From: a virus
IMG/VR virus record: IMGVR_UViG_3300006037_000048
Location: 1 to 20,950 of that record
Strand: one strand, 5' to 3'
DNA length: 20,950 nucleotides
Under the pieces are notes generated by a model. That model was not told where the DNA came from. It saw nothing but the letters and a program-made list of their open reading frames with translations, and made no database searches. Positions 10,917-20,910 of this stretch are shown in pieces. A program made the translations under genes and the position numbers. Numbering within the stretch: the first letter of the stretch is position 1; each line of letters opens with the position of its first letter.

Positions 10917-10941
10917 AAAAAGCCCCTTTCGGGGCTTTTTT
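10917..10941. terminator. Strong bidirectional rho-independent terminator
   Basis: AAAAAGCCCC (10917-10926) pairs perfectly with GGGGCTTTTT (10931-10940) around TTTC. On either strand the stem ends in a U-run. It lies between the ends of the plus-strand fibre gene and the minus-strand 68-aa gene, so it serves both converging units. Confidence 0.93.
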
Positions 10942-11788: not shown

Positions 11789-11817
11789 ATGATAACACAG
11801 TTTGGCATTATTGTCAA
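11789..11817 (-). promoter_or_regulatory. Minus-strand sigma-70 promoter (array member 1)
   Basis: A perfect -35 TTGACA (complement of 11812-11817) and a -10 TATCAT (11789-11794) are separated by 17 bases. It drives the unit 11727 to 10940. The leader is about 55 bases, longer than at other array members. Confidence 0.75.
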
Positions 11818-11835
11818 GCAGTGTGTTACCCATTA

Positions 11836-12087
11836 TTAGTTGCGAACAAGTTTCGGGTGCGTTCCCGGAACCAATACATAATCGTTACGTGTGCCCCAAC
11901 TTCCCATTATGGCTGTCATTTTAGGTCCAGGGATAGTTTTGGGATTTTCTGTCCCTTCAACTACACTCATTAGGGCTTTGGCGCCGGCAGATACATTAGT
12001 TCTTGGAATTTCTTGCGTTTTTCGCAAAGCAAAACCATCAAGTACACCTTCAATCATACCTGCATAGTACTCATCATTAGTTGTCAT
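11836..12087 (-). CDS. Hypothetical protein, 83 aa
   Basis: A soluble protein: helical N-terminus (DEYYAGMIEGVLDGFALRK), a middle with VSAGAKALMSVVEG, and a Gly/Pro-rich C-terminus (PGPKMTAIMGSWGTRNDY). No motif is recognised. AAAGGAAATG lies just before the start. It is a single-gene unit behind a promoter with two full consensus hexamers. Confidence 0.7.
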   Translation of the reverse strand: MTTNDEYYAGMIEGVLDGFALRKTQEIPRTNVSAGAKALMSVVEGTENPKTIPGPKMTAIMGSWGTRNDYVLVPGTHPKLVRN

Positions 12088-12117
12088 ATCATTTCCTTTA
12101 AGGAAGTTTAAAAATTA

Positions 12118-12146
12118 ATTATAACACCAAACACTTTTTGTGTCAA
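12118..12146 (-). promoter_or_regulatory. Minus-strand sigma-70 promoter, full consensus (member 2)
   Basis: TTGACA (complement of 12141-12146) and TATAAT (complement of 12118-12123) have exactly 17 bases between. Both hexamers match the consensus perfectly, so it should be very strong with a host-type sigma factor. Confidence 0.88.
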
Positions 12147-12156
12147 GCCGTTTTTA

Positions 12157-12300
12157 TTAGGCTTCGCCCAAAAAGATTGCCTTACCGATTGGGCTCATAC
12201 CTCGCCCCATACCTTCTGCAACCCAGCAAGTATCACCTGAAAGGACCATATCCTGATAGTAGGATTCACTCATAAAAACTCGGACCCGATAACTGTTCAT
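12157..12300 (-). CDS. Small hypothetical protein, 47 aa
   Basis: Begins at ATG 12300, one base after the preceding stop; a longer form starting at 12339 would overlap that gene by 38 bases and is rejected. The product (MNSYRVRVFMSESYYQDMV, then SGDTCWVAEGMGRG) looks like a small beta-rich protein with a Gly/Met-rich end. No family is recognised. It is coupled to the conserved 136-aa gene upstream and ends 11 bases before promoter member 2. Confidence 0.6.
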   Translation of the reverse strand: MNSYRVRVFMSESYYQDMVLSGDTCWVAEGMGRGMSPIGKAIFLGEA

Positions 12301-12301
12301 A

Positions 12302-12712
12302 TTATGCACCAACTGTGTAAGGTTTGTTCCATTGACCAACGTTCACGTCAACGTACCAGCCCACGTCAAAGTAGTCGGTTTGAATGTCGCTGCGGTCGTG
12401 ATTGCCACCATTCATAACTGCAAAAACTTCTTGCATGAATGCTTTAGCGTCACCGCTGAAATGATTTTGATAGTGATAAGGATTCACGTCCAGAGACTTT
12501 TCCGCTTTATTGAAACCTCGTGCAGAGAGATACGGATCAGCACTAACGGTATCGTTGAAGTTGCCGATAAAATCAATAGAACCACTCTTGATGTTCAAAA
12601 CCAAAGTCATGTGATTGCGCACAGCAAGCGAACCTTTGACGTTGTACTTTTTCAAAATTGCTTTGATAGCTGGGGCACGTTCTGCTTTGCGTTCTTGATT
12701 CATGTAAGCCAT
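12302..12712 (-). CDS. Conserved phage hypothetical, 136 aa
   Basis: A soluble protein with a strongly patterned sequence that I recall from many T4-like and other tailed phages, function unknown. Blocks are the N-terminal MAYMNQERKAERAPAIKAIL, LAVRNHMTLVLNIKSG with DFIGNFN, LDVNPYHYQNHFSGDAK, and MNGGNHDRSDIQTDYFDVGW with YVDVNVGQWNKPY at the end. The NPYHYQ and NHDRSD clusters would suit metal or nucleic-acid contacts but are not a named motif. AGGAC precedes the start within a repeated promoter leader. Confidence 0.8.
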   Translation of the reverse strand: MAYMNQERKAERAPAIKAILKKYNVKGSLAVRNHMTLVLNIKSGSIDFIGNFNDTVSADPYLSARGFNKAEKSLDVNPYHYQNHFSGDAKAFMQEVFAVMNGGNHDRSDIQTDYFDVGWYVDVNVGQWNKPYTVGA

Positions 12713-12745
12713 TTGATAGTCCTGTTCTTTACTGTTTAAGATTCT

Positions 12746-12774
12746 ATTATATCACCGAAACCATTTAATGTCAA
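12746..12774 (-). promoter_or_regulatory. Minus-strand sigma-70 promoter (member 3)
   Basis: TTGACA (complement of 12769-12774) and TATAAT (12746-12751) are separated by 17 bases. Spacer and leader (AGAATCTTAAACAGTAAAGA) are nearly identical to those of the promoter at 14258, so this is a copy of a repeated cassette. It drives the 136-aa and 47-aa genes. Confidence 0.88.
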
Positions 12775-12777
12775 CCT

Positions 12778-12999
12778 TTAAAATGCTTCACACATGTTAG
12801 GGAAGACACCGGTTTCTTCAAGAATATCAAGGGCACGAGTTCCGCCTGCGTATGCTTCGTCTTCTGTAGCAAAAACCGCAGCACTTTCAACCTCAGAGCA
12901 GACATATTCTTGTCCGGGAATACCCTTGTAACTTACTAGGGTAATACTCCACTTATTGTTGAATTTGCTTTGAGCCACTTGTCCGAGTTCTGTACGCAT
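12778..12999 (-). CDS. Hypothetical protein, 73 aa
   Basis: Predicted alpha/beta: strands KWSITLVSYK and EYVCSEVE, then AAVFATEDEAYAGGTRALDIL as a helix. The FATEDEAxxxG pattern resembles small phage proteins in which residues after the strand form a helix used for dimerisation, but that is only shape. A GGACATTGAA leader precedes the ATG. It is a single-gene unit between two promoters and ends four bases from the next -35 hexamer. Confidence 0.65.
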   Translation of the reverse strand: MRTELGQVAQSKFNNKWSITLVSYKGIPGQEYVCSEVESAAVFATEDEAYAGGTRALDILEETGVFPNMCEAF

Positions 13000-13032
13000 T
13001 TCAATGTCCTGTTCTTTACTGTCTATGTATGT

Positions 13033-13061
13033 ATTATAGCAGAATATCCATTTAATGTCAA
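13033..13061 (-). promoter_or_regulatory. Minus-strand sigma-70 promoter (member 4)
   Basis: TTGACA (complement of 13056-13061) and TATAAT (13033-13038) are separated by 17 bases. The leader keeps GACAGTAAAGAACAGGA in common with the promoters at 12746 and 14258 although the spacer differs, showing that parts of the cassette have recombined or diverged. Confidence 0.87.
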
Positions 13062-13063
13062 AT

Positions 13064-13201
13064 TTAGGCTAGAACGGTAAGCACTGCGAAGGTGTTGAAA
13101 ATGACTCCGATTCCGCTTATCCACCATGCAAGACTCCAAGTTCTGTCTATAGCTACAAAGTAGGCACAGGCTATGAGGCACAATAAATTGAGGATAAGCA
13201 T
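13064..13201 (-). CDS. Very small membrane protein, 45 aa
   Basis: Nearly the whole product is hydrophobic: residues 1-18 (MLILNLLCLIACAYFVAI) and 23-45 (SLAWWISGIGVIFNTFAVLT) would form two short membrane helices joined by DRTW. AAGG lies five to six bases before the ATG. It follows the 54-aa gene by seven bases and ends two bases before the -35 of promoter member 4. Its size lies below common gene-finding cut-offs. A holin-like role is possible from size and topology, but nothing else supports it. Confidence 0.6.
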   Translation of the reverse strand: MLILNLLCLIACAYFVAIDRTWSLAWWISGIGVIFNTFAVLTVLA

Positions 13202-13208
13202 AGGAACC

Positions 13209-13373
13209 TTAAGAGTTGACAGTTTTGAATGGACTCAGTTCTTCATCCGAAGACTCGGAAACTTCGTACACCCATTTGATGGGCACTTGTAGATATTGAG
13301 CGATTTTGACAGGTGAATCGCCCTGTTCCAGCATCAGTTCAATATCGTAGTAGAGTTCAGACATTCGGCTCAT
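13209..13373 (-). CDS. Small HTH-like protein, 54 aa
   Basis: A compact helical protein: MSELYYDIELMLEQGDSPVKIAQYL then VPIKWVYEV reads as helix, turn (GDS), helix, turn and recognition helix. The same layout (IExxLxxGxSPxxIAxxLxVPxxWVYE) occurs in small phage proteins, which suggests DNA binding or protein-protein contact. The Ser/Asp-rich tail is probably flexible. The start is in a four-base ATGA overlap with the preceding membrane-protein gene. Function is unknown. Confidence 0.65.
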   Translation of the reverse strand: MSRMSELYYDIELMLEQGDSPVKIAQYLQVPIKWVYEVSESSDEELSPFKTVNS

Positions 13374-13585
13374 TTTGATTTGCTCACGGTAGATTTAAAC
13401 AAGAAACCACTCAGTACGGTCAAGCCCCATGCTTGCAACCAAGTCACTTCGGCCACTCCTGCGATGGCGCCGACCAAGCAACCGTTCCACAACATGTACA
13501 CCGGCCAACTCAGCAAGAAACTGAGAAACAGAATGCCCATGATACCAAGAACAACTGCACCAACGACAACGACAACTTTTTCCAT
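13370..13585 (-). CDS. Small membrane protein, 71 aa
   Basis: Residues 4-27 (VVVVVGAVVLGIMGILFLSF) and 50-66 (WLQAWGLTVLSGFLF) are two predicted membrane helices, with PVYMLWNGCLVGAIAG between them possibly a re-entrant segment. The LWN and ITxxQAxGLxxLS-type patterns resemble small T4-like phage membrane proteins. A basic tail (KSTVSKSK) would face the cytoplasm. AGGAAAA precedes the start. It is the second gene of the unit led by the 90-aa SH3-like gene. Confidence 0.75.
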   Translation of the reverse strand: MEKVVVVVGAVVLGIMGILFLSFLLSWPVYMLWNGCLVGAIAGVAEVTWLQAWGLTVLSGFLFKSTVSKSK

Positions 13586-13607
13586 GATTTTTCCTAGAGT
13601 TTAAAAA

Positions 13608-13880
13608 TTAAGCAGCAGACAACATGTTTGCAGGGACACGCCAGTTGGTCATACCAGACTTGACGATAATGAATTTACGATTCACCTTTTCAACTGAACC
13701 AATCACAGTCTGACCGGAGCGTGAGCTAGTGAATTTTACTTGTGAGCCCTTGACTAGGGTGAATTTGTTTTTCGTTGCGATTTGACCACGAGCAAATTTG
13801 ATTGCATCATTGATTGAATTCAGGTCTTCGTTAGAGAAAGTGCCTGCGATGATAGAACGATTGATTTCTTGCAAAGTCAT
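13608..13880 (-). CDS. Conserved SH3-like phage protein, 90 aa
   Basis: The N-terminal 40 residues are helical (LQEINRSIIAG, NSINDAIKFARGQI). Residues 41-90 form a strand-rich SH3- or KOW-like domain: TLVKGSQVKFTSS, then TVIGSVEKVNRKFIIVKSG and NWRVPANMLSAA. This layout and the motif VPAxML match a family I recall in T4-like phages, function unknown; the KOW-like core suggests RNA or protein binding. AAGGAAT precedes the ATG. It is the first gene of a four-gene unit that ends with the 45-aa membrane protein. Confidence 0.75.
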   Translation of the reverse strand: MTLQEINRSIIAGTFSNEDLNSINDAIKFARGQIATKNKFTLVKGSQVKFTSSRSGQTVIGSVEKVNRKFIIVKSGMTNWRVPANMLSAA

Positions 13881-13912
13881 TTTGATTCCTTGTTTCGACT
13901 GTTTAAGATTCT

Positions 13913-13941
13913 ATTATATACCCAAAGTGATTTATTGTCAA
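13913..13941 (-). promoter_or_regulatory. Minus-strand sigma-70 promoter (member 5)
   Basis: TTGACA (complement of 13936-13941) and TATAAT (13913-13918) are separated by 17 bases. AGAATCTTAAACAGT follows the -10, as at 12746. The TGA within TTGACA is also the stop codon of the 95-aa gene upstream. Confidence 0.88.
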
Positions 13942-14225
13942 CCTTTTTTAACAGGTTTCACCCCATCAAAAGTCCATTCATTTGCTATCTCCTCATAGAA
14001 GTCGTTGCAATCACCTTCAGTGCCATCATCCGCTAGATAGTAGTAGGCAGACTCTGTATTGCCTGCGCGGTCAATCTCGTCCTCATCGTAGCCGCACTGG
14101 TCATAACCTTCAGGGTCATAGATAAACCAAGCAACCGGTTGATTGTCGTAGTCGCTATACTTTTTGAACCACTTCTTGTCCTTGATGTATGCTGCACTGA
14201 TTGTTGGACTGTGTTTTTCACGCAT
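13938..14225 (-). CDS. Acidic hypothetical protein, 95 aa
   Basis: A Tyr-, Asp- and Glu-rich soluble protein. The N-terminus (KHSPTISAAYIKDKKWFKKY) is basic and the middle is acidic (DPEGYDQCGYDEDEIDRAG, YYYLADDGTEGDCNDFYEE). High negative charge can indicate DNA mimicry, as in small early phage proteins that inhibit host enzymes, but no homologue is recognised. The tail is Lys-rich (KPVKKG). CAGGAAC precedes the start. It is a single-gene unit whose stop lies inside the -35 of the next promoter. Confidence 0.65.
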   Translation of the reverse strand: MREKHSPTISAAYIKDKKWFKKYSDYDNQPVAWFIYDPEGYDQCGYDEDEIDRAGNTESAYYYLADDGTEGDCNDFYEEIANEWTFDGVKPVKKG

Positions 14226-14257
14226 TTTAGTTCCTGTTCTTTACTGTCTAAGATTCT

Positions 14258-14286
14258 ATTATAGCACCGAAACCATTTACCGTCAA
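14258..14286 (-). promoter_or_regulatory. Minus-strand sigma-70 promoter (member 6)
   Basis: TTGACG (complement of 14281-14286) and TATAAT (14258-14263) are separated by 17 bases. Spacer (AAATGGTTTCGGTG) and leader match the promoter at 12746 with few differences. It drives the 95-aa gene. Confidence 0.85.
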
Positions 14287-14291
14287 CCTTT

Positions 14292-14540
14292 TTATAGGTT
14301 CTTCAATAGGTGCATTGTTAGGTCAGGGCCGCCGATCAGTACGCATTGACACGTGTACTTTAGGTAACCAGTATCATCACGGTATTTTGATAGCATATCA
14401 ACGACACGAACTTGCTTGGGTGTGATTTTGATAACCTTACCCACATAAAGGCTATTGTGATGGGTGTATGCGACTGCATCACCCTCTGCCACAGTACGAC
14501 CCAGAAGGTCTCGGTGATCTTCTGGAATAGTCTTACTCAT
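14292..14540 (-). CDS. Hypothetical SH3-like protein, 82 aa
   Basis: After a short helix (PEDHRDLLGR) the sequence TVAEGDAVAYTHHNSLYVGKVIKITPKQVRVVDM has the strand spacing of a KOW or SH3-like barrel, in which DxVAY and GKVxxI are typical strand pairs. It could bind RNA, DNA or a protein; function is not known. The start shares one base with the preceding stop (TAATG). It is the last gene of the unit driven by promoter member 7 and its stop is six bases from member 6. Confidence 0.7.
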   Translation of the reverse strand: MSKTIPEDHRDLLGRTVAEGDAVAYTHHNSLYVGKVIKITPKQVRVVDMLSKYRDDTGYLKYTCQCVLIGGPDLTMHLLKNL

Positions 14541-14782
14541 TATTTGGAAGTAATTTTGTTGATATTTGCAGAGATTTCGTCAATTTTTTTATCATGTTCC
14601 AACTTAGAAAGGATTAATCCATACACGGTGTACAATAGTACACTCATTATACCGACTGAAAATGCAGTTTGAATTGTCTCCACAGAGACATTGTGTGCAA
14701 TGTAATGTACTAGGCCTGCTGCGGCGACTGTACCAGCCATGAATCCAGCCAGAATGAGTAGAGCTTTGAGTTTAAGAGACAT
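14540..14782 (-). CDS. Two-helix membrane protein, 80 aa
   Basis: Residues 5-25 (LKALLILAGFMAGTVAAAGLV) and 37-57 (IQTAFSVGIMSVLLYTVYGLI) are predicted membrane helices, and a charged C-terminal coil follows (SKLEHDKKIDEISANINKI). A longer frame from 14830 is open but overlaps the 47-aa gene and lacks an SD, whereas AAGGAAATTC precedes ATG 14782. The start overlaps the upstream gene by 11 bases. No family is recognised. Confidence 0.72.
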   Translation of the reverse strand: MSLKLKALLILAGFMAGTVAAAGLVHYIAHNVSVETIQTAFSVGIMSVLLYTVYGLILSKLEHDKKIDEISANINKITSK

Positions 14783-14915
14783 TTTGAATTTCCTTTTGTG
14801 TGAGAATTGTGTTTGTGACGATAACACCACCGTATGCTTGCTGATACGTTTCAGCTACGGCTTTGACGAAAAATGTGAGAACTTTACCATTTGATGTAAT
14901 CAGCGTGAAGTTCAT
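14772..14915 (-). CDS. Very small protein, 47 aa
   Basis: Product MNFTLITSNGKVLTFFVKAV followed by AETYQQAYGGVIVTNTILTQ and KEIQNVS: two beta strands, one helix and one strand, which is a plausible folded mini-protein. GGAAATG precedes the start and promoter member 7 lies about 30 bases upstream. The AYGGVIVT pattern looks conserved in small phage proteins in my recollection. It is shorter than usual cut-offs, but the promoter, SD and overlap with the next gene support it. Confidence 0.65.
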   Translation of the reverse strand: MNFTLITSNGKVLTFFVKAVAETYQQAYGGVIVTNTILTQKEIQNVS

Positions 14916-14944
14916 TTCCAGTTCCTTATCGTTTCAATACATGT

Positions 14945-14973
14945 ATTGTATCACGGAAACCATTTAATGTCAA
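14945..14973 (-). promoter_or_regulatory. Minus-strand sigma-70 promoter (member 7)
   Basis: TTGACA (complement of 14968-14973) and TACAAT (14945-14950) are separated by 17 bases. The spacer AAATGGTTTCCGTG is close to those at 12746 and 14258 but the leader is different. It drives the 47-, 80- and 82-aa genes. Confidence 0.85.
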
Positions 14974-14977
14974 CCTT

Positions 14978-15130
14978 TTAGGTCTCAGGGCGATTGCAGT
15001 GCTTATTCTTACGACGGTACTGCACTTTGGATTGGACAACCTTAGGTTTGAACGGGGTGTTCTCGCAGAAAAGCACCCTATGTGCCCGATGTTTGGGCTG
15101 TTCAACAGTGAAAGATATTACCTTTTTCAT
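14978..15130 (-). CDS. Small basic protein, 50 aa, probably leaderless
   Basis: Product starts MKKVISFTVEQPKHRAHRVL, continues FCENTPFKPKVV and ends YRRKNKHCNRPET. It is strongly basic with two cysteines and two His near Cys, which could bind a metal or RNA. The ATG lies about seven bases downstream of the -10 of promoter member 8, so the mRNA would have almost no leader. The stop is four bases from the -35 of member 7. No family is recognised. Confidence 0.55.
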   Translation of the reverse strand: MKKVISFTVEQPKHRAHRVLFCENTPFKPKVVQSKVQYRRKNKHCNRPET

Positions 15131-15137
15131 AACTCAT

Positions 15138-15166
15138 AGTATAACACAATGAGTATTTATTGTCAA
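15138..15166 (-). promoter_or_regulatory. Minus-strand sigma-70 promoter (member 8)
   Basis: TTGACA (complement of 15161-15166) and TATACT (15138-15143) are separated by 17 bases. The TGA within TTGACA is the stop codon of the 78-aa gene. The leader is absent or nearly so. Confidence 0.82.
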
Positions 15167-15399
15167 CCTTGGCGACCAGTGGTGTAGTGTTTACCTTTTG
15201 GACCTTTGCTGATAAAAGTTCTTCCATACAAATCTCCCTGGTACTCGTCACTTTTAACATTGTACTTCAACACCAATTTGATGCTCCGATCAAGGCTGAT
15301 GCTGAGTAGCACATTAGGTTTAAAGTCAAGTACCTCAGCAGTTACAGTTTGGTTGTTGTCAACACATTTGACTGACGTAGTTTCATCATACCGGATCAT
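15163..15399 (-). CDS. Hypothetical protein, 78 aa
   Basis: A mainly beta soluble protein: TTSVKCVDNNQTVTAEVLDF, VLLSISLDRSIKLVLKYN, EYQGDLYGRTFIS and a basic Gly-rich tail (GPKGKHYTTGRQG). The alternating strands suggest a small barrel, related in style to the SH3-like 110-aa protein encoded just upstream. AGGAG lies before the ATG, and the start overlaps the preceding gene by 14 bases. Its stop codon is inside a promoter -35 hexamer. Function is unknown. Confidence 0.72.
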   Translation of the reverse strand: MIRYDETTSVKCVDNNQTVTAEVLDFKPNVLLSISLDRSIKLVLKYNVKSDEYQGDLYGRTFISKGPKGKHYTTGRQG

Positions 15400-15718
15400 T
15401 ACTTTCTCCTAATGAGAATTCAATGCGTTTGATATTTTTGATAGTGAATGCGCGCCACTCATTTTTTTCTAAGTCAAAGACACGCAATGCCTTTGTACTA
15501 TCAGATTGTTTGCGGGGCTTTGCACCTTCTTTCAATTCAACTACAGGTAGCTTGCTTGCTTCCAATGTGCATTTCATTACTCGCTCCGTGCCATCAACTT
15601 TAGTGAAAGTAATAGTTGCTTCACCGATTGCTAGCATTCCCTTAAGCCACTCGTGCAGTTTAGGTTCCATCTCATCAGTAATCGCAACATCTGTATTAAC
15701 CCAGTTACCAGTTTCCAT
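15386..15718 (-). CDS. SH3 beta-barrel phage protein (DUF2693-like)
   Basis: A 110-aa protein. The N-terminus is helical (EMEPKLHEWLKGML). Residues 33-60 contain ATITFTKVDGTERVMKCTLEA, the hallmark block of DUF2693/SH3-fold phage proteins, and the C-terminal block TKALRVFDLEKNEWRAFTI is also typical of that family. The fold is described but the function is not. It shares one base with the preceding stop (TAATG) and overlaps the 78-aa gene, so it belongs to a coupled run. Confidence 0.82.
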   Translation of the reverse strand: METGNWVNTDVAITDEMEPKLHEWLKGMLAIGEATITFTKVDGTERVMKCTLEASKLPVVELKEGAKPRKQSDSTKALRVFDLEKNEWRAFTIKNIKRIEFSLGESNDPV

Positions 15719-16041
15719 TATTTTGATACTCCTAAAATTGTTTTTGCTCGGGCGACAAGTTCCTCATCACTGTCAGTGAATCGGTAACCTTCTTCGATAA
15801 GTCGCAATGTGTAGAATTTGTTAAAGAACAACCCGAACATCAATGCAGTAAGCATCCACAGTGGTAATGTGAACATGTGAAAGATTAGACAAATCAATGA
15901 CATTACGAGATTACCACGATAAAGCGGTACAATCCATCCTAGACTAAAGATGCCTAGAAAGAAATAGCTATAGCTAAAACCAATGTATCCGTCTTTGACG
16001 ATACCAGTTTTAGTATGGGTCATTTGAATTGCTTGTGCCAT
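15718..16041 (-). CDS. HrgC-like small membrane protein, 107 aa
   Basis: After IQMTHTKTGIVKDGYIGFSYSYFFLGIF, two membrane stretches follow at about 24-55 and 60-75 (IVPLYRGNLVMSLICLIFHM, MLTALMFGLFF), then NKFYTLRLIEEGYRF. The T-GxxKxGxxGFSxxxxFFG and FxNKxYTxxLxxxGY patterns resemble HrgC-like and DUF2628-type proteins, whose function is unknown. The ATG abuts the preceding stop. The name is given by resemblance only. Confidence 0.65.
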   Translation of the reverse strand: MAQAIQMTHTKTGIVKDGYIGFSYSYFFLGIFSLGWIVPLYRGNLVMSLICLIFHMFTLPLWMLTALMFGLFFNKFYTLRLIEEGYRFTDSDEELVARAKTILGVSK

Positions 16042-16512
16042 TTATTGCCCTTGTTCTTTCCAAGTTGTAAAGAAGTTTTTGATCTTAGTTTCTTCATCCC
16101 AAGAAGTAGTGTAGTCATTATCTTTGTCACACAAGGTCAGTGCCTCTGCCTTAGTAACAACACGATGCGACACAATTTGTTCACCTAAATGCTCTGAACT
16201 GAATGTCTTGGCTTCTTCCATCGTTACGGTATCCAATGCCCATGTAGATTTATCTTTACCGAAATCATCAACACCAATAGGAACTTCGACCATATAGCGG
16301 TCGCGGAACGTACTAACGCATTCAACGAGAACCCATTGAGTTTCTACCTTCTTAGACAGAGTAAACGAACCATCATCATTGGGTTCCCAGTTGAGAGTAT
16401 CATCAATTTCCCAGCCCAGCTGATCACACAGACCTTCGGGGAAGGGAAGAATTAGATCACCTGTCTCAGGATCTTCCTCAACGATAACTGTAAAAGTTTT
16501 ATTTTCATTCAT
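16042..16512 (-). CDS. AbrB-like domain plus conserved T4-like domain
   Basis: A 156-aa protein. Residues 17-54 (TGDLILPFPEGLCDQLGW, then DDGSFTLSK) are an AbrB-type domain matching the 64-aa protein at 7272-7466. The rest contains VLVECVSTFRDRYMVEVP, WALDTVTMEEAKTFSSEHLG, IVSHRVVTKAEAL and CDKDNDY, blocks I recall together in T4-like phages, function unknown. The fusion suggests that a DNA-binding or oligomerisation module is joined to a second domain. It directly precedes the HrgC-like gene and follows the 96-aa membrane gene by one base. Confidence 0.8.
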   Translation of the reverse strand: MNENKTFTVIVEEDPETGDLILPFPEGLCDQLGWEIDDTLNWEPNDDGSFTLSKKVETQWVLVECVSTFRDRYMVEVPIGVDDFGKDKSTWALDTVTMEEAKTFSSEHLGEQIVSHRVVTKAEALTLCDKDNDYTTSWDEETKIKNFFTTWKEQGQ

Positions 16513-16513
16513 A

Positions 16514-16804
16514 TTAATTTACCAACATTCTAATTAAACCAATGCTGTCAATAGTGACAAGCAACAAATAATTTGCAATCATACCAAACGATTTACGAGT
16601 ATAAGCAGCCCAACCGTACATAGCGCAGCCACAAATCCATATAGGATAAAGATAGATAAGAGGCGGATTGGGTACAGTGAGCGCCATTGTGATCGAACAC
16701 GCGATTGAAATAGCCCAAGCCATAATTTCAACGACAAAACGAACAGGGTAAGTTTTATAGTCATCTTTGATCCAAGTAAAAATACTAGCTACCGCATCAT
16801 TCAT
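16514..16804 (-). CDS. Conserved T4-like membrane protein, 96 aa
   Basis: Three membrane helices at about residues 20-42, 48-63 and 75-95. Segments YPVRFVVEIMAWAISIACSITMA, TVPNPPLIYLYPIWICGCAMYGWAA and SFGMIANYLLLVTIDSIGLI match a pattern I recall from T4-like aquatic phages. The charged N-terminus (FTWIKDDYKTYP) lies in the cytoplasm. I choose ATG 16804 because the longer form starts with TTG. The start overlaps the preceding gene by eight bases. Function is unknown. Confidence 0.78.
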   Translation of the reverse strand: MNDAVASIFTWIKDDYKTYPVRFVVEIMAWAISIACSITMALTVPNPPLIYLYPIWICGCAMYGWAAYTRKSFGMIANYLLLVTIDSIGLIRMLVN

Positions 16805-17294
16805 GTTTATCAATCACTGCTTGTAAAATTTCAACCACTAACTCATTGAGTGTGATATCTTTCTCGTGCGCAAGTTGCATCATAGTAAACAATTCATCTT
16901 TGGATAAATTGATCGGCACACTAACACGTTTGTCAAAGTCTTCACCTTTGAAAATAGCACTTGCTTTTTCTAGGAAGTCTTCTTCTGTCTCCAAGTCAAT
17001 CCACTTAACATCATCCCATGCTTGGTCTGCATCTATTGTACGGTACGATGCTTCCTCATACATAACATTCTTAAACAGAGGATTCAACCAACGATAAGGC
17101 TTTTGTTCTGAATCTTTGATTTCAACATGAATTTCGTAGACTACTTGATCTGTCGTATCAAATACGCATGACCCAGTTGCATAAGCACTTTCATAATCTA
17201 GAAAGCGGGCGTTAGGACCGTAACACTTCCAGCCATATTCGCTGCCGCCATTGATACGATGTTCAAGACTTTCGTTTACGTCTTTTAGTTGCAT
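16797..17294 (-). CDS. Conserved T4-like hypothetical, 165 aa
   Basis: The N-terminal domain (HRINGGSEYGWKCYGPNARFLDYESAYA, then VYEIHVEIKD, YRWLNPLFKNVMYEEA, QAWDDVKWIDLETEEDFLEKA) matches a T4-like phage family of unknown role. The C-terminus (VSVPINLSKDELFTMMQLAH, EKDITLNELVVEILQAVID) reads as a ribbon-helix-helix pattern, so the protein may bind DNA or dimerise. AAAGGAA precedes the ATG. It overlaps the upstream 77-aa gene by 32 bases and the downstream gene by eight. Confidence 0.82.
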   Translation of the reverse strand: MQLKDVNESLEHRINGGSEYGWKCYGPNARFLDYESAYATGSCVFDTTDQVVYEIHVEIKDSEQKPYRWLNPLFKNVMYEEASYRTIDADQAWDDVKWIDLETEEDFLEKASAIFKGEDFDKRVSVPINLSKDELFTMMQLAHEKDITLNELVVEILQAVIDKHE

Positions 17295-17496
17295 TTTGTT
17301 TTCCTTTAAGGGTTTGTAAGTCTGCTAATTTGATAATTTCATTATAGATGAATTCCATTACACTGTAAAGTATTTTGGCATCACGCTCTGTCATCCCTGC
17401 TTCCCAAGAAGGGTCAGTAGGTTGTTTTCGCAATCCAAAATCATGCCTGTACTCTAGGCACATCATGTGGATTACTTCTTCTTTAGTCATTGTCAT
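17263..17496 (-). CDS. Hypothetical protein, 77 aa
   Basis: A helical, partly acidic protein (TKEEVIHMMCLEYRHDFGLR, DPSWEAGMTERDAKILYSVM, EFIYNEIIKLADLQTL) with a very basic C-terminus (KGKQNATKRRKRKS). The Arg/Lys tail could bind nucleic acid. The ATG at 17496 has GGGTGAAAC before it; 17490 is an alternative. It overlaps the upstream gene by 14 bases and the downstream gene by 32, a larger overlap than its neighbours, so the end of this gene is constrained by two frames. No family is recognised. Confidence 0.65.
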   Translation of the reverse strand: MTMTKEEVIHMMCLEYRHDFGLRKQPTDPSWEAGMTERDAKILYSVMEFIYNEIIKLADLQTLKGKQNATKRRKRKS

Positions 17497-17761
17497 GTTT
17501 CACCCAAGTATTTGTTCCACTGTTCCAGTGTCGGTTGTCATAAATTTGTGCACCGATTGTGTATCCCAAAAACCCCATCTCTATGCAGAGTCCTCCGTGG
17601 TCTCTACGGAAAGTCATCTCAAAGCTAAAACTAATTAACACACCACATCGGTAACATTCAATTTCCCAAGACTTGTTTTTAGTTAGTTGGCCGGCTTTAA
17701 CAAACACAGTTTTGAATGTGTTACTCCATGGATTTTGAATTGTGAGGTTAAGATGGATCAT
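17483..17761 (-). CDS. Hypothetical protein, 92 aa
   Basis: Starts at ATG 17761 (SD AGAGA) behind an extended -10 promoter; a longer frame from 17914 is open but overlaps the preceding gene by 86 bases, so I reject it. Strand-rich: MIHLNLTIQNPWSNTF, TVFVKAGQLTKNKSWEIECY, LISFSFEMTFRRDHGG, LCIEMGFLGYTIGAQIYD, then RHWNSGTNTW. The RHWN-x-xxTNTW ending resembles conserved ends of T4-like phage proteins. Function is unknown. Confidence 0.65.
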   Translation of the reverse strand: MIHLNLTIQNPWSNTFKTVFVKAGQLTKNKSWEIECYRCGVLISFSFEMTFRRDHGGLCIEMGFLGYTIGAQIYDNRHWNSGTNTWVKHDND

Positions 17762-17779
17762 ATATATTTCTCTAGCGTC

Positions 17780-17804
17780 ATTATAACACTCAATACAATA
17801 ATGA
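17780..17804 (-). promoter_or_regulatory. Extended -10 promoter candidate
   Basis: On the minus strand TGTTATAAT forms an extended -10 (TATAAT complement of 17780-17785). A -35 about 18 bases upstream (TTGCTT) is poor. It would begin transcription some 10-12 bases before the 92-aa gene's ATG. Confidence 0.4.
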
Positions 17805-17828
17805 AGCAAGTACTTTCGGGCAGATAAA

Positions 17829-18047
17829 TCATCGTTTGGTCTGTCCGATCCGACTAGCCTTATTCCAGTCGTATGCAACCCCATCTGGACATTTGCCGTC
17901 TTTGATAGTATCAACTCCGAACATACCTACGATTTCAAAGTCTGGACCGGTGATGGTCACAAACTCGTTCATTACTTTAGCGGTGTGCATTGCTTCATCC
18001 AATGTCATTGCATCAAATGAAACAGTCTTACCTTTTACTTTAAACAT
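17829..18047 (-). CDS. Conserved T4-like hypothetical, 72 aa
   Basis: MFKVKGKTVSFDAMTLDEAM, HTAKVMNEFVTITGPDFEIV, GMFGVDTIKDGKCPDGVAYD and WNKASRIGQTKR: the TLDEAMxxAKxMNEFVTIxGPDFEIVGxFGVDxIxxGKCPDG pattern is well conserved in T4-like aquatic phages in my recollection, with no known role. The end (SRIGQTKR) is basic. It shares one base with the preceding phosphatase stop (TAATG). Confidence 0.82.
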   Translation of the reverse strand: MFKVKGKTVSFDAMTLDEAMHTAKVMNEFVTITGPDFEIVGMFGVDTIKDGKCPDGVAYDWNKASRIGQTKR

Positions 18048-18511
18048 TAAAAATCATTCTTAAAAGTTCGCCAATCATCTAAGTTTGGCTTTTCGTTTTC
18101 ATCATATGTCCAACCCAATGCCTTCATCATACGATGCTTGACTAACAAGTTAGGGCTACGAAATCTTCCAGTGTCTTCAAATCCCATCATTACACCGACT
18201 TCGCAAACTGCACCACTACGGCAAATGCCCATAGTACAGTGAACAACCACGTTCATGCGATTGTCTTTTGCATGTTGCAGCAATCGAACCAACTCGTTAG
18301 CTTGTTCTTGGCTGCAACGCATTTCTTCTTCCAATGCATAGTCATGCAATTCAATGTCAAGGAACTCAAAGTTATGACGTTCCTTGAACACGTGCTTTGC
18401 TTCTGGCTTCCAACCTGCAGGATCTGTAATGCTAATCAGCATAGAGTTCTCACCTGCTTCATGATGGAAGCGAGTTGGGATATCACTAGCAGCTACATTC
18501 TCAATCCACAT
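18047..18511 (-). CDS. Cysteine-based (tyrosine/dual-specificity) phosphatase
   Basis: A 154-aa protein with the P-loop HC-x5-RS at 91-99 (HCTMGICRS): C92 is the nucleophile and R98 binds phosphate. A candidate general acid is D57 (ELHDYA). The N-terminal part is shorter than in classical PTPs and closer to dual-specificity/kinase-associated types. Substrate is unknown: protein, nucleotide or RNA end are all possible. ATG 18511 has GAGGT at good spacing and overlaps the kinase gene by 11 bases. Its coupling to a polynucleotide-kinase-like gene is notable. Confidence 0.85.
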   Translation of the reverse strand: MWIENVAASDIPTRFHHEAGENSMLISITDPAGWKPEAKHVFKERHNFEFLDIELHDYALEEEMRCSQEQANELVRLLQHAKDNRMNVVVHCTMGICRSGAVCEVGVMMGFEDTGRFRSPNLLVKHRMMKALGWTYDENEKPNLDDWRTFKNDF

Positions 18512-18965
18512 ATCGTACCTCAATAAATCCTTCATCCTTAGTTGGTTCTTGCCAACCTGCAATCATACTATCAACAACATTTTTCGGAATGTGTTTACCA
18601 AAGCGACCACTCAATCGCACATCTAACTCGTCACGTACGGGTGTGCGGAACACCACAGCAACATGCTCATAATCACGCAACATATTAAACTTCTTTTTAC
18701 GGCTATTAACTGTAGTAGAAGTTTGGTCCCATATGATATCTCGGCCCAGGTCCCGAGCATTCTCAACTTGAATAGCCATTAGCTTTACGGCTTGTGGCAT
18801 ATAGTCTTTGAACACTTCGTTATAGGTTAGTCCAAGTCGTTCGGCTTCCATGTCAACCCACATGTCGGTAGATACAATAGTACAATCACTAGCCCAGGCT
18901 TGGTTCTTGATCCAAGTACTTTTACCTGCTGCGGGCACTCCGACTAATTGATAACATTTTGCCAT
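18501..18965 (-). CDS. P-loop kinase, T4 Pnkp kinase-domain-like
   Basis: A 154-aa protein with Walker A GVPAAGKST at 9-17, a DxD-like STDMWVD at 32-38 and WDQTS at 79-83, followed by basic residues R111, R117 and R121 in the LID-like region. This is the layout of the 5'-OH polynucleotide kinase family, which phosphorylates RNA or DNA 5' ends from ATP; small nucleoside or metabolite kinases share it. No 3'-phosphatase domain is fused, unlike T4 Pnkp. I choose ATG 18965 (GGTGA upstream); a GTG at 18974 would overlap the preceding stop as GTGA. Confidence 0.78.
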   Translation of the reverse strand: MAKCYQLVGVPAAGKSTWIKNQAWASDCTIVSTDMWVDMEAERLGLTYNEVFKDYMPQAVKLMAIQVENARDLGRDIIWDQTSTTVNSRKKKFNMLRDYEHVAVVFRTPVRDELDVRLSGRFGKHIPKNVVDSMIAGWQEPTKDEGFIEVRYVD

Positions 18966-18970
18966 TTTCT

Positions 18971-19366
18971 TCACCGTGTACTGTTTGCTAATTCTTTGTA
19001 ACCATTTGTTGTAGGATGAACTTTGTCTTTTGAAAGTTGAGGAATGAACAAAATCTTATCCTCAAACTTGCCAGCAACAATTTTCACTGCCTCTTGTGCG
19101 TTTGCATTTATTGCAGGGACGATCCAATATACTCTTTTTGCATCAACCACTTCTCTAAGTACAAACAACTCTGCAAGAGTTTTCATGTTTTTGGAATCAT
19201 TTGACCCCAAACTGATAATTACTGTTTTGGCTGCAAGATCCTTTGTGATATTTCTATCAACATAGTTGCGACTATTAATTCCCACCTTAGCATGAACTTC
19301 ACACTCAGGGCGATACTGTGCTACGCCAACTGCAATACTATCACCTAACAGTAAACACTCAATCAT
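18971..19366 (-). CDS. SGNH/GDSL-type hydrolase
   Basis: A 131-aa protein with block I GDSI (Ser10 nucleophile) near the N-terminus, a block III-like GSND at 54-57, and block V DKVHP with D114 and H117. The strand-helix pattern between the blocks fits an alpha/beta/alpha hydrolase. Family members cleave esters of lipids or sugars; phage examples often act on host surface polymers, but there is no signal peptide here. The start at ATG 19366 overlaps the preceding gene by eight bases. Confidence 0.8.
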   Translation of the reverse strand: MIECLLLGDSIAVGVAQYRPECEVHAKVGINSRNYVDRNITKDLAAKTVIISLGSNDSKNMKTLAELFVLREVVDAKRVYWIVPAINANAQEAVKIVAGKFEDKILFIPQLSKDKVHPTTNGYKELANSTR

Positions 19367-19646
19367 TAGATTCGTCTTCCTCTTCGGGAATTGCTGCTTC
19401 AAGCTGCCGGATCAGAGATCGGACTGCACTTGTACTCATTGTCAGTGTAGATGCGGTGTAGCCATCGCCGGTCATACGCAGTTGAATATAGCCGGCAGGG
19501 TTACGTCCGATTGTGTACACTGCATCATCCTTCATCGGGTCGCGAGGAGCAACTACCTTAGGTATAACTGGAATTGCAGTTGGTTCCTCGTTAATAGCTG
19601 CATCAACCGTGTTGGCAATTTGCCGTTTACGCCATCCAAAAATCAT
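19359..19646 (-). CDS. Conserved T4-like hypothetical, 95 aa
   Basis: The N-terminal part is a basic helix and linker (MIFGWRKRQIANTVDAAI, EEPTAIPVIPKVVAP). The conserved part is YTIGRNPAGYIQLRMTGDGY, TASTLTMSTSAVRSLIRQLE, AAIPEEEDESND, like the 'GxTQLRxxxDGxSxTLTMxxxxxxxxIRxL' pattern I recall in cyanophages. AGGAGTTAGT precedes ATG 19646; a longer frame to 19691 overlaps the upstream gene. The acidic tail is probably flexible. Function is unknown. Confidence 0.78.
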   Translation of the reverse strand: MIFGWRKRQIANTVDAAINEEPTAIPVIPKVVAPRDPMKDDAVYTIGRNPAGYIQLRMTGDGYTASTLTMSTSAVRSLIRQLEAAIPEEEDESND

Positions 19647-19656
19647 ACTAACTCCT

Positions 19657-19842
19657 TTATTGAATGGTAGCAGTTTGATAACCACTACCACCCGTTTTAA
19701 TCATAGCAACATGCGTTACCAACTTTAGAAACTCATCCATTTCCTCTGAACTTGCTGCCGCATGGGGTAGTTCCCCTTGCATCACTTTCCACAAACGTTC
19801 AACGTCTGTATCAGAAAGCCAAGTATCAAATTCATCTGTCAT
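19657..19842 (-). CDS. Conserved hypothetical, 61 aa
   Basis: A helical protein: DTWLSDTDVERLWKVMQGEL, PHAAASSEEMDEFLKLVTHV and a short tail. The GELPHAAASSEE-like centre looks conserved among T4-like phages in my memory, function unknown. It is the first gene of its unit: promoter member 9 lies directly upstream with AAGGAACATAA before the ATG. It is followed by the 95-aa gene after ten bases. Confidence 0.75.
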   Translation of the reverse strand: MTDEFDTWLSDTDVERLWKVMQGELPHAAASSEEMDEFLKLVTHVAMIKTGGSGYQTATIQ

Positions 19843-19860
19843 TTATGTTCCTTAAATTGT

Positions 19861-19889
19861 ATTATAGCATGGTATCCATTACTTGTCAA
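19861..19889 (-). promoter_or_regulatory. Minus-strand sigma-70 promoter (member 9)
   Basis: TTGACA (complement of 19884-19889) and TATAAT (19861-19866) have 17 bases between. It lies between the RNA ligase stop and the 61-aa gene and starts the long run down to 15386. Confidence 0.88.
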
Positions 19890-19890
19890 C

Positions 19891-20910
19891 TTAGTCGCCG
19901 CCCTTGAGCAAAAACTTGTTAGAAATTGCCTTGAAGGACACTTGTTTTTCGTTACACTTGAACACAAGACCTTCACGTTCTGGTCCATTGATATCGCCCA
20001 TTACAGACTTACCTTCTGCAAGTTGCAGCAATGATTCAACTGATTCAATTAGCTCAGTGTTGCGGTGAAGCACAGGGCAGTGATTCAATCCAAACACTTC
20101 TACAAACGCCTTACGTTCAGCAGGAGTGTAGTAACGTCCTGCATCAATATCGTAAATGTCGTAAACATAAAAGTCTTGGTCACGCATCTTGTACTTGTTA
20201 CCTTGAATACCGTTGCCAATCAGTTCACCTTGAACTGCAAGGTTACCACCTGCAATCTTCAACTTTTCTTCTAGGTCGTGCTTAAGAGCAGCACGCCACA
20301 GTGAATTATCTTCGTTGCGTTTGAGGTCAAGGTTGCGTGAACACACACCAACATAGTCATCAATACGATAAACAGTCATTGACGAACCATCTAACTTTTC
20401 AGTCACTTCCCAAGATAGATTCTCAGTCTTCCACACTTCCAACTCTACTGACAAGTTTTGAATACGCTCTTGGTCAGTCTTGGGAATCACTGAAGGGAAC
20501 ATGCCCTTGACTTCGCCTGCAAGTGCTGCGGGGATTGGTGCTTCGTACTTGGTGATACCGAGAAATTCAGATACATCATCACCGATCGCCATATCATTTG
20601 GAAATAACTTCACAGATTCTGGAGACAGTAACAGCCCTTGCGACAATTGACCACGCAACTTCACAGTACGGAGACGTTCGCCTTCAACACCTTCAAAAGT
20701 CTTAGCATAGTGTCCGGACTTGGTCAAGAACGGTGCGATAGTAGAGGGGATGAACGAATCAATTTCGCAATATACTGCCAGATCACCAGCAGTATATTCA
20801 CCCTTCTTTACTACGCAGGTCCAGCCACCTACGATAGCGCATTCAATTGCATCAGCGCCCACAATAGGACGCAGTGCATCAATCTTTCTAATAGTTGCCA
20901 TCTTACGCAT
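19891..20910 (-). CDS. RNA ligase, two-domain DraRnl (Rnl5)-type
   Basis: A 339-aa ATP-dependent RNA ligase, close to the 342 residues of the Deinococcus enzyme. The N-terminal ~150 residues form an OB-like module. The nucleotidyltransferase domain has motif I EKLDG at 171-175 (AMP-accepting K172), Ia SRN at 191-193, III QGELIG near 227-232, IIIa FYVYDIY, IV EGLVFK at 313-318 and V VSFKAISNKF near 324-333. It seals RNA nicks, where present using 3'-OH and 5'-phosphate ends. ATG 20910 has AAGGAAATTA upstream; 20901 is an alternative. Together with the kinase it could form an RNA-repair pair. Confidence 0.9.
   Translation of the reverse strand: MRKMATIRKIDALRPIVGADAIECAIVGGWTCVVKKGEYTAGDLAVYCEIDSFIPSTIAPFLTKSGHYAKTFEGVEGERLRTVKLRGQLSQGLLLSPESVKLFPNDMAIGDDVSEFLGITKYEAPIPAALAGEVKGMFPSVIPKTDQERIQNLSVELEVWKTENLSWEVTEKLDGSSMTVYRIDDYVGVCSRNLDLKRNEDNSLWRAALKHDLEEKLKIAGGNLAVQGELIGNGIQGNKYKMRDQDFYVYDIYDIDAGRYYTPAERKAFVEVFGLNHCPVLHRNTELIESVESLLQLAEGKSVMGDINGPEREGLVFKCNEKQVSFKAISNKFLLKGGD

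Follow-up and report, generated by a model that had tools for sequence, protein, structure and literature searches.

Five promoters in a run of small minus-strand genes are copies of one regulatory cassette, and genes are gained and lost between such copies from cassette to cassette. The run lies in the 20,950-base IMG/VR virus record IMGVR_UViG_3300006037_000048, the whole of which is referred to here as the window. In our opinion, held with a probability of about 0.86, the copies form a direct-repeat regulatory array and serve as recombination homology for gene exchange. The cassettes constitute a family with sharp bounds that is spread among viral contigs, and single cassettes can be mosaic.

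The cassette family

An earlier note on this DNA listed nine near-identical sigma-70 promoters on the minus strand (a site is designated here by the plus-strand position of its final -10 base). All nine lie where they had been placed; their hexamers are 17 nt apart and match the consensus at 11-12 of 12 positions. The exact pattern TTGACA-N17-TATAAT occurs five times on the minus strand of the window, never on the plus strand and never in reversed form; promoter-like sites overall are not above chance (47 versus 50.9 in shuffled sequence). The near-identity holds for the sites at 14945, 14258, 13913, 13033, and 12746, and fails for those at 15138, 12118, 11789, and 19861. The former score 37-57 bits (E 1e-11 to 1e-17) with a cassette profile built mostly from other contigs. 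By the same profile, 15138 and 12118 reach about 7.5 bits (E about 0.1) and are weak relatives, 19861 reaches 5.3 bits, and 11789 was not found in the search of the window; the last two sites have little in common beyond the promoter consensus. Thus, a family of nine members is rejected, as only five score as cassettes.

The likeness that the note had proposed outside the hexamers was confirmed by alignment among the five family members, exceeding background in the leader, the spacer, or both. In the leader, 12746, 13033, 13913, and 14258 agree at 18-27 of the 35 bases downstream (mean 9 and 99.9th percentile 18 for random pairs), and in the spacer, 12746, 14258, and 14945 agree at 14-16 of 17 bases (99.9th percentile 11); the leader of the 14945 copy has diverged. 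Since leader and spacer bases are common ahead of unrelated genes, the match does indeed go beyond promoter consensus alone. AAGG ahead of the -35 hexamer, said to mark most sites, is present at five of the nine and absent from the other four. Each unit comprises 1 to 4 small genes according to the open reading frame (ORF) list, as described.

The cassette measures about 60-62 bp, from AAAGG ahead of the -35 hexamer through to the Shine-Dalgarno sequence. In a profile of 59 distinct contexts, in which positions 0-17 were fixed by the search and the other columns were free, conservation sets in at AAAGG, 4-5 bases ahead of the -35, and stops at the Shine-Dalgarno sequence, with background on both sides. 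The upstream gene stops close to the -35 (median distance 2 nt) or within it; the TGA of TTGACA serves as its stop codon in 174 of 452 cases (~38%), so that the cassette itself ends the previous protein. The window genes at 13938-14225 and 15163-15399 both stop at the TGA of the next -35, and both proteins end in glycine. Shuffled sequence folds more than the leader does, for which reason a structured RNA leader is rejected. A terminator-like site lies within the ~60 nt upstream in 3.7-4.1% of cassettes (20/484), the same as at ordinary junctions of those loci (3.6%); single copies can carry one, as in contig L115.

The leader motif recurs widely in other viral contigs, where the note had suggested searching for it. 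The cassette 18-mer AAGGTTGACATTAAATGG was found in 81 stretches, nearly all of which run on roughly as GTTTTGGGTATATAATAnAnnCTTAGACAGTTAATTAAAGGACnnnAAAATG ahead of different genes, and a leader-only pattern in at least 120. Altogether, 484 distinct cassette junctions were collected from 245 loci in uncultured viral contigs. Among whole records, the highest count is ~25 copies, in one of 117 kb; a 303-kb record has 14, and the 73.7-kb twin of the window, whose sequence matches the window at 100% identity across 11 kb, has 16. The reversed pattern is absent everywhere. The absence of exact cassette matches among 84,980 prokaryote genomes led us to reject a host-derived element, and no isolated phage among 50,697 phage records carries the cassette convincingly (best E 0.6). 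Strong within-genome homogenisation is likewise rejected: the effect is weak (identity 0.669 versus 0.642), and the copies therefore look like one shared pool.

Gene exchange at cassettes

Comparison with contigs L092 and L115 identifies an exchangeable module in the window, namely the 95-aa gene at 13938-14225 (minus strand) between the cassettes at 14258 and 13913. In L092, this gene is absent, and homologues of its two neighbours are joined by one cassette resembling that at 13913. In L115, the gene is 93% identical from cassette to cassette, and both neighbours are unrelated to those in the window. The homology of other contigs to the window stops preferentially at five of the nine sites: such ends, for which the background has a median of 1 and a 90th percentile of 11, number 25 at 13913, 24 at 12746, 17 each at 15138 and 11789, and 10 at 14945, with none at 12118; the value at 19861 is biased by the adjoining RNA ligase gene, which served as the search query.

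It should be noted that the cassette itself or the RNA ligase served to find the loci, and that the following frequencies do not describe all genomes. Of cassette junctions with a common upstream gene end, 35% also have the downstream gene in common; of those with a common downstream gene, 13% have the upstream one in common (Jaccard 0.11). The Jaccard index is 0.30 at ordinary junctions of the same loci, and 0.39 when gaps of 40 nt or more are taken. When ends of alignments were scored, breaks occurred in 86% of comparisons at cassettes versus 60% and 52% at control junctions; in the 90-99% identity bin, the values were 50% versus 31% and 27%. Among the 484 junctions, pairs unrelated on both sides have flanks 24-31% identical, with most of the cassette at ~60-100%. 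Where only the downstream gene is common to a pair, identity is 70-80% downstream and ~27% just upstream of the cassette; where only the upstream gene is common, it is at background from a few bases into the spacer on past the leader. From this pattern it follows that the promoter mostly travels with its downstream gene.

Genes are gained or lost as stretches bounded by cassettes, with exactly one cassette remaining. Among 927 indel-like events, 132 are cassette-bounded on all sides, representing 75 distinct segments with a median of 346 bp. In the genome lacking the gene, the flanking matches of these indels overlap by a median of 57 bp, approximately one cassette, and an overlap of 35-80 bp characterizes 83% of them versus 1.5% of other indels. 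A paper on Acinetobacter T4-like phages (PMC4177764) gives ~50 bp of homology as sufficient for recombination in T4, with which a 60-bp cassette is in keeping.

The cassettes left behind are themselves informative. The test of parentage used 48 events for which both parents are represented and the cassette has four or more informative sites. Among these, the single-cassette allele runs from parent 1 to parent 2 in 33, in the reverse order in 5, and is tied in 10. Perfect parent switches number 11, versus 2.1 expected from shuffled site order.

Weighing of explanations

Under the recombination reading, the cassette would combine a strong sigma-70-type promoter, an unstructured leader, and a ribosome-binding site, through which host RNA polymerase would express small accessory phage genes. 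Expression would most likely be early in infection, judging from the promoter type and by analogy. The copies would provide the homology with which two phages, or two copies in a single phage, recombine, and we infer that UvsX-type machinery of the phage performs this recombination. When two cassettes cross over, either internally or at an edge, the intervening gene or genes would be inserted, deleted, or replaced, and every crossover would leave one working promoter, leader, and start site. A tentative extension, which we hold with considerable doubt, is that the cassette may be a common "adaptor" through which a whole population of uncultured freshwater T4-type jumbo phages draws on one pool of accessory genes, the cassette sequence being kept partly as a recombination joint. 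Were this true, some 60 bp would hold the previous gene's stop codon, a complete promoter with its leader, and a ribosome-binding site, and any gene between two copies could be exchanged in one crossover and expressed at once.

That ordinary early promoters are merely kept alike by selection, while genes are exchanged by any mechanism without involvement of the cassette, is in our opinion improbable. The cassette core is a perfect sigma-70 consensus, selection on spacer and leader is possible, and the accessory region varies in any case, with breaks at ordinary junctions in 52-60% of comparisons; however, the likeness of leader and spacer far exceeds that consensus ahead of unrelated genes, indels stop exactly at cassettes with one remaining, and the mosaic order of single-cassette alleles is that expected for crossover. 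The same observations bear on the earlier description of the module as mobile or recombination-prone. Synteny breaks, cassette-to-cassette indels, mosaics, and the case in the window bear out the second term, whereas movement of the promoter alone is rare. There is one clean empty site in favor of a promoter that inserts before genes by itself: in contig L209, the sole clear case, the neighbours are joined without a 66-bp cassette stretch present in four other contigs. Presence and absence between the same neighbours was nevertheless found for no more than 4 distinct candidate cassettes, each of them in comparison with the same locus, as opposed to the 75 distinct gene segments gained or lost, and no transposase or terminal repeats were seen. 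An independent mobile element is thus very unlikely, and an autonomous mobile promoter is rejected on the rarity of filled and empty sites.

Chimeric metagenome assembly at repeats could imitate shuffling, given that all carriers are metagenome contigs and that the cassette is a dispersed repeat. Yet cassettes of one locus match one another exactly over a median of 15 bp (99th percentile 53 bp), and usual final assembly word sizes are longer than these lengths. Moreover, both junctions of 852 discordant pairs recur elsewhere in non-identical sequence, exchanged segments differ by 3-30% from their relatives, and the window arrangement is found at 100% and 99.97% identity in contigs L001 and L002 from other metagenomes. 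Individual chimeras are possible; as the source of the whole pattern, assembly is unlikely, and we give it very little weight.

Several points nevertheless weigh against recombination at cassettes as the explanation. The cassettes at 13033 and 14258 show no peak of homology ends. Breaks are frequent at ordinary junctions of these loci as well, as stated, and collection via the cassette or the RNA ligase enriches variable regions. The events share loci, so that their counts are not independent, and some mosaics are imperfect, which may reflect older events, later mutation, or true parents that were not sampled. Promoter activity and early timing are themselves predictions. Lastly, Gp23 and UvsX, encoded by other carriers, have no match in the window's own contig or in its 73.7-kb twin, the latter probably being a fragment.

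Known systems, carriers, and window layout

Phages RB49 and phi1 possess promoter-early stem-loops (PeSLs), cassettes of promoter plus terminator that are reported to bring about gene shuffling in T4-type genomes (PMC4503421, PMC3950731). Mini-circles of DNA arising between adjacent copies are reportedly a further PeSL trait. The present cassette resembles them in having a strong sigma-70 early-type promoter with a shared leader and many copies in accessory regions of the T4 superfamily, and in the insertion, deletion, and replacement of genes between copies, for which the evidence here comes from the comparative footprint and the mosaic tests. The likeness in concept to cassettes of T4-like phages, suggested earlier, is supported by these tests. 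The cassette differs from PeSLs in sequence, in phage clade, in the position of the upstream stop codon next to or within the -35, and in having no enriched stem-loop or terminator: the same scan, with RB49 as positive control, found one in 20/484 cassettes and in 7/26 leader-bearing RB49 promoters (p=1.7e-4). For this reason, membership among PeSLs is rejected; the cassette is a promoter-only variant that works like a PeSL without the defining terminator, which suggests that a terminator is unnecessary for such gene exchange. The PeSL sources, as cited in PMC4503421, are Arbiol et al. 2010 (Genome Biol Evol 2:140) and Comeau et al. 2014 (Genome Biol Evol 6:1611). In several RB49 promoters (L251, L252), an inverted repeat lies inside the spacer (GGGGATCGGTGATCCCC), and a stem-loop may thus be situated within the promoter itself.

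Two further systems are comparable in part. The haloarchaeal myovirus HGTV-1 has a TATA-box plus inverted-repeat motif ahead of genes (PMC3950731). Like the cassette, this is a repeated regulatory motif ahead of many genes and a proposed driver of shuffling; unlike it, it is an archaeal promoter with an inverted repeat, and shuffling there is a suggestion. Cluster K mycobacteriophages carry start-associated sequences, which are likewise short repeats where phage genes begin and are reportedly tied to ribosome-binding sites rather than to a complete sigma-70 promoter. If the recombination reading is correct, accessory regions of large freshwater phages would be built by recombination at a common promoter cassette, beyond random illegitimate joints. 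The cassette sequence could then serve as a handle that flags module borders and points to candidate host-takeover genes in metagenomes. The many natural exchange events also provide a quantitative data set for an idea that has reportedly been tied so far mainly to RB49-type phages.

The T4-type capsid protein Gp23 was found in 7 cassette-bearing records (E 1e-16 to 1e-100), including all five that exceed 210 kb. Four of these major capsid proteins are mutually 94-98% identical, and the carriers seen by capsid are therefore one clade. Judged by capsid, the closest isolated phages are Sinorhizobium phage Phosso (72%), Vibrio phage 2.275.O (70%), and Pseudomonas PA5oct-like phages (68%). DNA polymerase B is present in 12 of 17 records, and several cassette-bearing records encode a UvsX-like recombinase. 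The related contig G002 carries DNA polymerase B; the window's own phage, represented by a fragment, is not directly placeable. The 57-74 kb part of the twin contig (L250) also holds a QueE-like radical SAM gene (phrog_2076) and exonuclease and endonuclease genes. Defence or counter-defence names for the small genes were not obtained from PADLOC, and most of these genes have no family in PHROGs or Pfam.

The cassettes, promoters, and individual genes of the window described below are on the minus strand. Cassette copy 5 (14925-14980) has its -35 at 14973-14968 and a TACAAT -10 ending at 14945 (nhmmer 42.0 bits, E 2e-12). Copy 4 (14225-14292) has a TTGACG -35 at 14286-14281 and TATAAT ending at 14258 (45.8 bits, E 1.3e-13). 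Copy 3 (13882-13947; -35 at 13941-13936, -10 ending at 13913; 37.4 bits, E 5.6e-11) precedes a four-gene unit at 13064-13880 (ORFs 13880-13608, 13585-13370, 13373-13209, and 13201-13064). Behind copy 2 (12998-13061; -10 ending at 13033; 38.6 bits, E 2.3e-11), the ORF list gives a 73-aa gene at 12778-12999. Copy 1 (12712-12780; -10 ending at 12746) is the best match (56.6 bits, E 5.5e-17) and precedes a 136-aa gene (phrog_10415, 12302-12712), whose relatives in other contigs have the same cassette ahead and different upstream genes.

The weak relative ending at 15138 (15137-15171; 7.4 bits) is without the shared leader, and its TGA is the stop of the upstream 78-aa gene (15163-15399). This promoter ends 8 nt ahead of the ATG of a 50-aa gene (the stretch at 15130-15138), and its transcript would be nearly leaderless. 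The other weak relative, ending at 12118, spans 12093-12145 (7.6 bits). The sigma-70 promoter at 11789-11817, identified by the consensus scan, is outside the cassette family and is still a site of homology ends, and that at 19861-19889, directly after the RNA ligase gene, is not clearly a family member (5.3 bits). The RNA ligase (phrog_968, 19891-20910) has ~60 relatives in viral contigs, and many ligase carriers are without the cassette. Near it, at 18047-18974, a dual-specificity-phosphatase-like gene lies beside a polynucleotide-kinase/ATPase-like gene, and together with the ligase these genes possibly form an RNA-repair neighbourhood. A strong bidirectional terminator is located at 10917-10940 between convergent gene blocks, and the homology of many contigs also starts beside it.

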